A stretch of DNA of 20,260 nucleotides from a virus, in the IMG/VR virus record IMGVR_UViG_3300008110_001988, positions 1 to 20,260 of that record; one strand, given 5' to 3'. The notes under the pieces were generated by a model. The model did not search any database, had not been told where the DNA came from, and was given only the letters and a program-made list of their open reading frames with translations. Positions 17,437 to 20,260 of the stretch are shown in pieces. Positions within the stretch are counted from its first letter, which is position 1, and each line of letters begins with the position of its first letter. The position numbers and the translations under genes were made by a program.

Positions 17437-18041
17437 TGGGAATATTTACAAACGTACTTGAAAGAGGTCGTACTGGAAGAACCACTAGTGGTATCATAAA
17501 ACCAGGTACAGATGAAGCCCGTGACTGGTACAGAGAACTAGCATTGTCTATTAGAAGTGTTAAGGTTGAAAATGTCATAAGACAGAATCAACAATATAAT
17601 AGAATGCAAATTAAACCAGGGTTTCTTTACCTCTTTAATTATGATCCTAAAACAAAAGAAGATCTACCTTATTATGATAGATTTCCTCTGGTATTTCCTT
17701 TTGAAAAGACTGAAGATGGTTTCTTGGGTTTAAATTTACATTACATTCCACCTATCTATAGAGCTAGGTTGATGGATAACCTTTACGGGCTTGTTAATAA
17801 TGAAAGATATGATGAAACCACAAAGTTAAGAATGTCCTATAGAATGTTAAATTCTGCAGCCCGCTATAAATATTTTAAACCTTGTGTTAAAAGATATCTT
17901 TCAAGTCATGTAAGAAGTAAATTTTTACAAATACCAGCTAATGAATGGGACATTGCTTTGTTCTTACCATTAGAAAGATTTACAAAGAAATCAAAGAGCA
18001 CAGTATACAGAGATTCAAGGATAATTATAAATGGCGTTTAA
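17436..18041 (+). CDS. Conserved T4-like virion/packaging-associated protein, possibly gp2 DNA end protector
   Basis: The 201-residue product has a block LPYYDRFPLVFPF (about 77-89) followed by 'GFLGLNLHYIPPIYRARLMD'. I recall this pair from uncharacterised or gp2-annotated proteins next to gene 4 in T4-like phages. In T4, gene 2 (DNA end protector, 274 residues) also lies beside gene 4, so gp2 is the best guess, but I cannot align it to T4 gp2 from memory. The C-terminal half is basic (many Lys and Arg: KYFKPCVKRYLSSHVRSK, ERFTKKSKS), fitting a DNA-contacting or head-tail junction role; that is inference. It starts in a TAATG overlap with gp4 and its last 11 bases overlap the next gene. No membrane segment or enzyme motif seen. 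Confidence 0.85.
   Translation: MGIFTNVLERGRTGRTTSGIIKPGTDEARDWYRELALSIRSVKVENVIRQNQQYNRMQIKPGFLYLFNYDPKTKEDLPYYDRFPLVFPFEKTEDGFLGLNLHYIPPIYRARLMDNLYGLVNNERYDETTKLRMSYRMLNSAARYKYFKPCVKRYLSSHVRSKFLQIPANEWDIALFLPLERFTKKSKSTVYRDSRIIINGV
17865..17872 (+). promoter_or_regulatory. Possible internal late promoter element TATAAATA
   Basis: A perfect TATAAATA lies inside the preceding coding region, about 160 bases before the tube-initiator start at 18031. It could support extra late transcription of the gp54-gp26-tape measure genes. It also encodes Tyr-Lys-Tyr in frame, so chance in AT-rich coding DNA is a real alternative. Confidence 0.3.
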
Positions 18042-18765
18042 TATCAATGATATGCTTGGTGCCTTAAATGGTGCAGGTGGTCTTACAAAGGCTTCAAAAT
18101 TCTTTGTAGAGATATATCCACCAAGAGCTTTTCCGGCTGATTATAATTTATTCTTTCTTTGTGATAGTGCATTACTGCCCGGTGTAAGTTATCAAACCGA
18201 AGATATTAAAATGAGTGGTTATGGTAATTCAGAAAAAAGACCCTCAAGTACAACTTTTGGAGATACCACACTTTCTTTTTATAATGATTCCAGTGGCAAA
18301 GTATTGACATTTTTTCATCAATGGATGCAGGCTGTTTACAATTTTAATTCAAATATAAACCCGTCAGGTACATCTAAAGGTGTACCAATGGAAACATTTG
18401 CATATCCAAAAGAATATTATGGTATAGTAAATATATCTCACTTTGATGATTCCGGTGAAAATATTATTACATATACGCTCAATGAAGCTTACCCTATAGC
18501 TATCGGTGATATACCTGTTGATTGGGGACTATCGGATCAATTGATAAAGGTTCCAGTTGCCTTTGCGTATACGTACTGGACAGCAGAAACATTAGATCCA
18601 GGTTATGTTGATACGAGATCACAAGCTAATTATTATACAACTGAGGCAACTGCAGCCCGTGTTGATTTTGAACTCAAAGCAATCAGAGAATTATTGTTTA
18701 TTACTTCACCTTCACAAACTAGCAGGGCTGTAAATCAGTTTTCTAATCTTTTAACATTTTTATAA
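18031..18765 (+). CDS. 54: Tail-tube-fold protein, probably baseplate-tail tube initiator gp54
   Basis: The pattern is that of the gp19/gp54 tube fold. FFVEIYPPRAFPADYNLFFL leads to CDSALLPGVSYQT, corresponding to T4 gp19 'FQVEISYLGQNFTFQCKATALPAG'. Later 'YTLNEAYPIAIGDIPVDWGLSDQLIKVPVAFAYTYWT' parallels gp19 'IEIKGLWPTNVGELQLDWDSNNEIQTFEVTLALDYWE'. At 244 residues it is longer than gp19 (163) and shorter than T4 gp54 (320). Its place next to gp26 and the tape-measure candidate, rather than beside a sheath gene, favours the tube initiator gp54 over the major tube gp19; that choice is inference. An AAGGA at 18017-18021 stands nine bases before the ATG and fixes the start. The ATG lies 11 bases inside the previous gene. 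Confidence 0.75.
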   Translation: MAFNINDMLGALNGAGGLTKASKFFVEIYPPRAFPADYNLFFLCDSALLPGVSYQTEDIKMSGYGNSEKRPSSTTFGDTTLSFYNDSSGKVLTFFHQWMQAVYNFNSNINPSGTSKGVPMETFAYPKEYYGIVNISHFDDSGENIITYTLNEAYPIAIGDIPVDWGLSDQLIKVPVAFAYTYWTAETLDPGYVDTRSQANYYTTEATAARVDFELKAIRELLFITSPSQTSRAVNQFSNLLTFL

Positions 18766-18782: not shown

Positions 18783-19478
18783 ATGGCGTTACCCAAAATT
18801 AAACATCCAACATACCCTGTTACTATACCTTCTACTAAAGAAAATATTAATTTAAGACCGTTTACTGTCCAAGAAGAAAAACTTCTTCTTATGGCTAGGT
18901 CATCTGATAATACAGAAGATGCTATTAGTTCTGTCAAACAAATAATTCAAAATTGTATTATGGAAAATGTAGATGTTGAAAAACTTGCAACATTTGATAT
19001 TGAATATTTGTTTATAAAATTGAGAGCTAAGTCTGTTGGTGAAATTGTAGAATTAGAATATACAGATCCAGAAGATAATGAAGTCATTAAGTTTAAAGTG
19101 AATTTAGATGAAATACAAGTAATTATAAATCCTGATCATAAATCTAAATTTAATATCACAGAAGAAATTGGTGTTGTAATGAGATATCCTACACTTAAGG
19201 AAATCAGTGTGATGAATGTCAATGAAAATGCAGATAACTCGGTTATTGAAATATTATTTAAATGTATTGATAAAATTTATGATGAAGATAATGTTTATAC
19301 AGATTTTACAGAACAAGAATTAAATGATTTTATTAATAGTCTACCTATAGAAAGTATGGAAAAAATTCGCAATTTTTTTGAAACTATGCCATCTATAGAA
19401 CATGATGTAAAACTAAAGAATAAATCAGGTAAAATGCTTGAGGTTAAGCTAAAAGGTCTCAACAATTTTTTTCGATAA
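18783..19478 (+). CDS. 26: Baseplate hub assembly protein gp26 (T4_baseplate family)
   Basis: The 231-residue product (T4 gp26 has 208) has the T4_baseplate-family layout: a short N-terminal 'MALPKIKHPTYPVTIPSTK', then FRPFTV-type 'LRPFTVQEEKLLLMA' (25-39). Next come 'FDIEYLFIKLRAKSVGEIVELEY' and a C-terminal 'ESMEKIRNFFETMPSIEHDV' helix region typical of the family. In T4, gp26 is needed for hub formation. In marine relatives and many other myophages a protein of this kind precedes the tape measure and is a candidate tape-measure chaperone. The final codons read AAT TTT TTT CGA TAA, providing a slippery run that may join this frame to the next ORF. The stop overlaps the next ATG (TAATG at 19478). 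Confidence 0.88.
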   Translation: MALPKIKHPTYPVTIPSTKENINLRPFTVQEEKLLLMARSSDNTEDAISSVKQIIQNCIMENVDVEKLATFDIEYLFIKLRAKSVGEIVELEYTDPEDNEVIKFKVNLDEIQVIINPDHKSKFNITEEIGVVMRYPTLKEISVMNVNENADNSVIEILFKCIDKIYDEDNVYTDFTEQELNDFINSLPIESMEKIRNFFETMPSIEHDVKLKNKSGKMLEVKLKGLNNFFR

Positions 19479-19504
19479 TGACCGGATATAGTAATATTGC
19501 GGTC
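19466..19504 (+). promoter_or_regulatory. Candidate programmed -1 ribosomal frameshift signal between gp26 and the gp51-like ORF
   Basis: The heptamer T TTT TTT at 19466-19472 is in the correct phase of the gp26 frame (AAT TTT TTT). After a seven-base spacer comes a hairpin: GACCG (19480-19484) pairs with CGGTC (19500-19504). An inner ATAT/ATAT stem (19486-19489 with 19494-19497) closes an AGTA loop, with a G-T pair and one bulged G between the two stems. A -1 slip leads straight into the frame of the 59-residue ORF. All elements are seen; activity is inferred. Confidence 0.6.
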
Positions 19505-19657
19505 TATTATAACACCCTTTTTTCTTTAGTTCAACACCATAAATACTCATTAACAGAGGTATATGATATGTATCCTTATGAAAGAGATTTATTCTTGGAA
19601 CTTTTAATGAAACATATTAAAGAATTAGAAGAAGAAAGAAAGAGACGTAATGGCTAA
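19478..19657 (+). CDS. 51: Small gp51-like hub assembly ORF; possible frameshift extension of gp26
   Basis: A 59-codon frame starts at the ATG inside TAATG and ends at TAA 19655-19657, eight bases into the next gene. The protein is helical and charged: YSLTEVYDMYPYERDLFLEL (23-42) followed by MKHIKELEEERKRR (44-57). The block 'D(M)YPYE' recalls the short second ORF of tape-measure chaperone pairs (lambda gpT type) and small ORFs called gp51 in marine T4-like phages; T4 gp51 itself has 249 residues. It has no Shine-Dalgarno site within about 20 bases of its ATG. Expression could be by stop-start coupling or as a roughly 290-residue gp26 fusion through the -1 slip signal. Both could occur. Its position between gp26 and the tape-measure candidate suits a chaperone role. 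Confidence 0.7.
   Translation: MTGYSNIAVYYNTLFSLVQHHKYSLTEVYDMYPYERDLFLELLMKHIKELEEERKRRNG
19538..19545 (+). promoter_or_regulatory. Possible late promoter element CATAAATA
   Basis: NATAAATA-type match inside the gp51-like ORF, about 105 bases ahead of the tape-measure candidate. One such match is not rare in DNA this AT-rich, so support is weak. Confidence 0.25.
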
Positions 19658-20260
19658 AGGTCCTAAAATTACAACCGGCACTGGAAGTAATGTAGGTTTT
19701 TCTAGGGAATATTCTAATACTCCAGAGGGTAAATCTCAAATTGAAAATCTTCTTCGAAAAATAAAAGAAGCTGAGGAAAAAAATATTACTGCCCAAAGTG
19801 AGTCGGCAAATGCGCAACAAGATGCAGCTGAAAAAATAGAAGTAGCAGCTGAGAATTTGAGTGAAGCTTCTGAAAAAATAATTGAAAATACACAAGAACA
19901 AATTAAATTAAATGATACTGTGAAGAATTATTTTAATTCATTTAAATCTTCTTTTAAACAATTTGCTGATTCTTTTCAATCTCAAACAAATGACAATACA
20001 GAAGCACAGCCAGGTAGAGCTTCAAGACCTGGCAGACTTAATAGTTTAGATGAAAAATTAAATACTCTAATTGACATTAATCAAAATATCCTTAACGCCA
20101 CTTTAAATAATAATCCTTTGCTTTATGATATTTTACAAGCCTTACTGTTAAAAAGTGCAATAACCGGTGGTGGTGGTAAAGGGGGTGGTCGTGGAGGTAA
20201 TACAGGTGGTGGTCCTACTAATCCTCCTCGTGGTAGAGGAAATGGTGGCGGAGGAGGCGG
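19650..20260 (+). CDS. Probable tail tape-measure/hub protein, N-terminal part (3' end beyond the window)
   Basis: The frame opens at ATG 19650, overlapping the previous stop by eight bases, behind a purine-rich AAGAAAGAGA stretch, and stays open to the right edge (203 codons). Residues about 26-95 are Glu/Ala/Lys/Asn/Gln-rich and predicted coiled coil (IENLLRKIKEAEEK; AAEKIEVAAENLSEASEKII). A short hydrophobic helix 'LLYDILQALLLKSAI' lies at about 154-168. From about residue 172 the sequence becomes a Gly/Arg/Pro-rich low-complexity run. Coiled coil plus position directly after gp26 and the small chaperone-like ORF fit a tape measure (gp29 role in T4: length ruler inside the tube). No homology to T4 gp29 is recognisable in the visible part. 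It could also be another large virion protein. Confidence 0.65.
   Translation, partial: MAKGPKITTGTGSNVGFSREYSNTPEGKSQIENLLRKIKEAEEKNITAQSESANAQQDAAEKIEVAAENLSEASEKIIENTQEQIKLNDTVKNYFNSFKSSFKQFADSFQSQTNDNTEAQPGRASRPGRLNSLDEKLNTLIDINQNILNATLNNNPLLYDILQALLLKSAITGGGGKGGGRGGNTGGGPTNPPRGRGNGGGGG
20166..20260 (+). repeat. GGT/GGA-rich low-complexity tract encoding a Gly/Arg linker
   Basis: Repeated GGT, GGA and GGC codons give a Gly-rich peptide with scattered Arg, Pro and Asn, to the window edge. Base composition jumps to strongly G-rich on this strand compared with the AT-rich surroundings. It follows the helix at about residue 168 of the host protein. Confidence 0.7.

Follow-up and report, generated by a model that had tools for sequence, protein, structure and literature searches.

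Tail assembly chaperones made by -1 frameshifting are well known in other phages. In lambda, the proteins gpG and gpGT, which Xu, Hendrix and Duda are said to have described in 2004, are reportedly two isoforms made by a -1 shift and encoded between the tube and tape-measure genes. Siphophages with frameshifted chaperones have the locus order tube, chaperone, tape measure, as the locus described here does with its tape-measure candidate. The lambda slippery site (G GGA AAG) differs from the T TTT TTT site of the present locus, the lambda proteins are those of a siphophage, and our searches found no sequence relation between gpG/gpGT and the proteins of this study.

Among T4-like phages, gp26 and gp51 were identified as tail assembly chaperones (TACs) by Vladimirov, Gautam, and Davidson (2022; Virology 566:9-15, doi 10.1016/j.virol.2021.11.003), according to two papers that cite that work (PMC12846349 and PMC10274946). 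As cited there, these TACs are the same gene pair as the one considered here, with a short form and a long form that has an extra C-terminal domain. The 2025 paper on phage Adele (PMC12846349, citing Vladimirov et al., 2022) refers to poly-T signals for -1 frameshifting in the TAC-N genes of T4-like phages, while the PRFect paper (PMC10274946), citing the same source, refers to separate short and fused long genes in some T4-like phages; the present locus, in contrast, has no separate long gene but a frameshift site and a covarying hairpin. Phage Adele and the Vandenendeviridae/Andersonviridae, as presented in PMC12846349, also have a short ORF with a -1 frame that is open in all genomes, and likewise a poly-T motif near its 3′ end, ahead of the tape-measure gene. 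The motif in these other families is GTTTTT (PMC12846349), whereas here it is T TTT TTT, and T TTT TTY in relatives; the covarying hairpin of the present clade has no counterpart mentioned in that paper's account of the Adele signal. The original prediction for this locus knew of no described gp26-gp51 frameshift in T4-like phages, a view that the 2022 TAC identification and the poly-T signals cited from it correct. The gp26/gp51 chaperone frameshift is of a kind already known, and the evidence added here is the covarying hairpin and the loss of start codons. In the annotated phage records examined, none has the gp26 and gp51 ORFs joined.

The DNA analyzed here (the window), from an environmental T4-like phage, is the whole stretch of 20,260 nucleotides at positions 1 to 20,260 of viral record IMGVR_UViG_3300008110_001988, with a G+C content of 33%; all features given below lie on its plus strand. 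Our main reading, to which we assign a probability of about 0.93 from sequence comparison, is that a programmed -1 frameshift would yield a short gp26 form and a long, gp51-extended form that act as tail assembly chaperones. The zero-frame ORF of gp26 (18783..19478; TAC-N-like) encodes 231 amino acids (26.8 kDa), and matches Pfam PF12322 (T4_baseplate; E=5e-63, 213 bits against a curated cut-off of 24.5) and PHROG 150 (baseplate hub; E=3e-68). Its 3′ end reads AAT TTT TTT CGA TAA, which places the heptamer T TTT TTT (19466..19472) in the zero-frame phase. A 7-nt spacer (19473..19479), in which gp26 terminates in the zero frame (TAA, 19476-19478) and an overlapping ATG begins, separates the heptamer from a putative stimulatory hairpin (19480..19504) composed of an outer stem, GACCG/CGGTC (19480-19484/19500-19504), and an inner stem, GATAT/ATATT (19485-19489/19494-19498), with an AGTA loop and one bulged G at 19499. 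The -1 frame (19472..19657) has no stop before the gp51-like ORF and forms an extension of 61 codons, ending at the stop at 19657. The slip product would read NNFF-SIMTGYSNIAVYY, with a predicted slip-spanning junction peptide of GLNNFFSIMTGYSNIAVYY (the junction reads FFSIMTGYSN) and a predicted fusion of 291 amino acids (34.1 kDa). The heptamer, seven-base spacer, five-pair outer stem with inner AT stem, open -1 frame, and forms sharing about 230 residues with a tail of about 60 had all been called in the original prediction, and each was recovered on recomputation.

The extension constitutes a gp51-like C-terminal domain. The ATG ORF inside it (19478-19657) matches PHROG 634 ("baseplate hub assembly catalyst"; E=5e-17). 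A second match of this ORF, to the C terminus of the gp26-family profile PHROG 150 (positions 250-282, E=0.0025), gave a first hint of fused family members. A search of NCBIfam with gp26 and gp51 returned no match.

Conservation of the junction was examined in 72 IMG/VR loci with gp26, of which 69 have a complete junction, giving 70 with the window (32-100% identity to the window; 42 after de-duplication at 95%), and in 79 additional, distant loci from a profile search (mostly 37-45% identity), for a set of 121 relatives. Every one of the 70 complete close junctions carries the heptamer in phase (in the de-duplicated set, 38 TTTTTTT and 4 TTTTTTC), as do 79/79 distant loci (46 TTTTTTC, 32 TTTTTTT, and 1 TTTTTTA). 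It also occurs in isolate phages of Synechococcus, Sinorhizobium, Stenotrophomonas, and Pseudomonas, and likewise in those of Aeromonas, Vibrio, Cronobacter, and Agrobacterium. Exceptions are RHph_I1_18, with T TTT TTA placed further upstream, the Tevenvirinae, and two phages from a different arm, the Ackermannvirid CBA120 and Vibrio D495, from which T TTT TTY is absent. In the latter two (L077 and L079), gp26 ends in GAG ATT TTC ATT TAA or TCA CTT TTC AAG TAA, and the -1 frame is open into a gp51-like tail despite the lack of a heptamer, possibly by way of a different slip site (TTTTC).

Two explanations that dispense with ribosomal slippage bear directly on the T-run. Under the first, a conserved Phe-Phe pair would simply be written TTT TTT by codon bias, next to an incidental hairpin, as the AT-richness of the window and the conservation of the pair at the protein level might allow. 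However, the amino acids and the codon use of each phage (relatedness ignored) predict T TTT TTY in only ~52 of the 121 relatives, and it was observed in nearly all, the sole exception being T TTT TTA. At the first slip codon 54/54 sequences have TTT, as compared with 457 TTT to 226 TTC among all Phe codons of the same genes; the heptamer is retained in phages with 47-55% G+C; and in DLP6 (GC3 0.75), with its 13 Phe codons, TTT is used at the slip site and nowhere else. Within gp26 there is another in-phase T TTT TTT (19373-19379, upstream Asn-Phe-Phe, ~90 nt before the slip site), which serves as a natural negative control: it is present at only 5/34 sites, and the -1 frame entered from it stops within 7 codons, so that it was also rejected as a slip site in its own right. 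Together with the covariation at synonymous sites described below, these comparative data lead us to reject codon bias, which we regard as having a negligible chance of being correct. Under the second explanation, RNA polymerase would slip on the T-run, so that the mRNAs vary in length and a portion of them join the two frames. Bacterial polymerases are known to slip on long runs of A or T, and a run of seven T is present here. This mechanism is independent of reading-frame phase, yet the phase is invariant; it would need no downstream hairpin at a fixed 7-nt spacing; and 46 of the 79 distant relatives have only six T followed by C. Transcriptional slippage is thus disfavored, and we consider it very improbable.

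Programmed ribosomal frameshifting is further supported by the hairpin. Folded alone, the hairpin region of the window has a predicted energy of -8.9 kcal/mol (z -2.7), with 1/200 shuffles as stable. In a gap-free alignment of 33 distinct core-clade sequences, in all of which the spacer is 7 nt long, 97% of outer-stem cells are paired (24-44% in slid controls), and changes on both sides occur in 3/5 outer-stem pairs, which 0/500 shuffles reach. The central pair (columns 24-42) takes all four Watson-Crick forms, C-G (25), G-C (4), A-U (1), and U-A (1), and has changed ~7 times on a gp26 tree in which two out-of-clade sequences are included as well. Both members of this pair fall at wobble positions, one in a Thr codon (ACC/ACG/ACA/ACT) and the other in an Ala/Ser codon (GCG/GCC/TCG/TCT/TCA), so that the protein does not explain their coupling. 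In another relative (L049), GGTGG/CCACC stands in place of GACCG/CGGTC, which keeps the stem while swapping Thr/Val for Val/Thr between the arms. The same structure is recovered unaided by RNAalifold. The alignment of junctions from relatives that had been proposed as a check thus returned a conserved T-run phase, spacer, and stem, the last with covariation.

A single universal hairpin for all T4-like phages was not found, and distant clades fold differently. Two close sister sequences, L028 and L055 (3675-3730), have a broken outer stem (GACGG/GGGTT and GACAG/GCATT) and retain the heptamer and the 7-nt spacing; these may use another stimulator. In L059 and in distant groups there are other or weak structures, such that the hairpin is non-uniform outside of the core clade. 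Several distant, cyanophage-like loci (L112, L116, L118, L119, L138, L144, and similar ones) have T TTT TTC followed by a perfect hairpin, GGTCCATATGGACC, and in four others (L135, L140, L161, and L162) the stem is long and of the type TATGGCTCAT..TTGAGTCATA. From their sequences, the stimulators look clade-specific.

Stop/start overlaps of the TAATG type are common in phages, and the gp51-like ORF could instead be translated by re-initiation at the TAATG after termination at the TAA, giving separate gp26 and gp51 proteins; this overlap had been raised originally as a competing or parallel route. Close to the junction, the -1 frame has an ATG in the window and in 25 of 41 other close relatives. 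The ATG at 19478 has no Shine-Dalgarno-like sequence upstream (CTCAACAATTTTTTTCGATAATG), as had been claimed for the small ORF, unlike gp26, which is preceded by AAGGATA, and the next downstream ORF, which is preceded by a purine-rich stretch. The -1 frame is open in all untruncated loci of the relatives, but 59/121 (16/42 close and 43/79 distant) have no ATG in this frame before the conserved core, and 38/121 (9/42 close and 29/79 distant) have no ATG, GTG, or TTG, while the heptamer is always kept. Over the tree, the ATG was gained or lost ~7 times. Coupling of this type requires neither the phase of the T-run nor a covarying stem, and in T4 the fused form exists as a single gene (see below). 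Relatives were also examined for loss of the T-run or stem with retention of TAATG, and the opposite pattern was found. Since the ATG has been lost repeatedly and the heptamer never, re-initiation is rejected as the main route, and we view it as improbable.

Comparison with T4 further supports the fusion. When a profile was built from the predicted fusions, its short-form part matched T4 gp26, and its positions 23-279 of 292, straight across the -1 junction, matched T4 gp51 (249 aa). T4 gp26 is homologous to the short form of the window, and T4 gp51 to the whole of its fusion. The two T4 genes lie on opposite strands, and T4 gene 26 lacks a terminal T-run (its end reads AAA GAG TTC TTT GAG), as opposed to the single locus with a frameshift signal in the window. 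Because T4 gp51 is collinear with the fusion and gene 26 lacks the T-run, T4 appears, on sequence grounds, to encode both isoforms as genes, with the long form separate; this is the arrangement that the PRFect paper, in its citation of earlier work, describes for some T4-like phages. The earlier statement that T4 makes gp26 and gp51 separately is accordingly correct as to the two genes, although T4 gp51 is a full-length protein (short form plus tail) and not the tail alone. It seems reasonably probable that, throughout the large marine/cyanophage-like arm of the T4-like phages, gp26 and gp51 form a single frameshifted gene whose covarying stimulatory hairpins differ from clade to clade, that a free-standing gp51 is there an annotation artefact, and that the T4 lineage later escaped this arrangement via a separate long gene.

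The position of the locus is informative regarding its function. Directly upstream is the tail tube protein gene (18031..18765; PHROG 45, E=1e-34; Pfam PF23849, E=5e-14), and directly downstream is the start of the ORF of a tape-measure candidate (19650..20258, the window ending at 20,260), so that the order is tail tube, gp26/gp51, tape-measure candidate, in agreement with the predicted location ahead of this candidate. In a contig whose gp26 is identical to that of the window (L001), the downstream ORF has 766 amino acids (L001:3868-6168), and is Gly-rich with repeated TLLSI-type segments. This ORF has no significant match to tape-measure families, its PHROG matches being weak (best, PHROG 3590, 1.5e-5, of unknown function). 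In RHph_I1_18 and phiM12, a gene shortly downstream at the homologous position is annotated as tape-measure-like. An AlphaFold2 model of gp26 (pLDDT 86) matches models of gp26 from other phages. Searches of the PDB with this model by fold found no significant known chaperone (HK97 gp13, 2OB9, in Foldseek: E 2.5, prob 0.09, TM 0.21/0.37), and a PDB sequence search gave no match. As no solved chaperone matched significantly, the case for a chaperone role is built on synteny, the logic of two isoforms, and published work.

Frameshifting could be real with products that are solely baseplate-hub assembly factors, as the T4 annotation, which puts gp26 and gp51 in baseplate hub assembly, would suggest. 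We find this unlikely in view of the order of tube, gp26/gp51, and tape measure in the window phage and related phages, the two-isoform logic, and the published identification of gp26/gp51 as TACs, as cited in PMC12846349 and PMC10274946. By analogy to lambda G/GT, the best reading is that gp26 (231 aa) and gp26-gp51 (291 aa) would be the short and long isoforms of a tail assembly chaperone; the T-run and hairpin almost certainly cause a -1 slip, and so the two proteins would be two forms of one chaperone. For the slippage and its efficiency we infer the following course. Most ribosomes would terminate at 19476-19478, releasing the short form. A minority would pause at the hairpin 7 nt downstream with two Phe codons on T TTT TTT, both tRNAs would re-pair one base back, and reading in the -1 frame would then run through the gp51 region to give the long form. 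The shared part may bind tube subunits and/or itself, and the tail of the long form may recruit or coat the tape measure, as in the lambda analogy.

Two baseplate genes that the public records examined list as separate would thereby become one gene with two products, and a link would be drawn between the long-puzzling gp26 and gp51 of T4 and the proteins that act as tape-measure chaperones in other tailed phages. Covariation at synonymous sites, loss of start codons, and retention of TTT in G+C-rich phages are a stronger test than the usual slippery-motif call, and on this basis hundreds of T4-like genomes could be recoded by annotation pipelines. In L017, the conserved core of the -1 extension is seven residues shorter (around YPYERDL) than in near-identical relatives; this may reflect genuine variation or a misassembly. 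In three isolate loci, L073 (S-RIM8), L079 (D495), and L086 (Melnitz), the annotated gp51 begins at internal starts, well past the -1 junction, and in three others, L077 (CBA120), L083 (S13), and L084 (Ah1), the -1 extension is present without any annotation.
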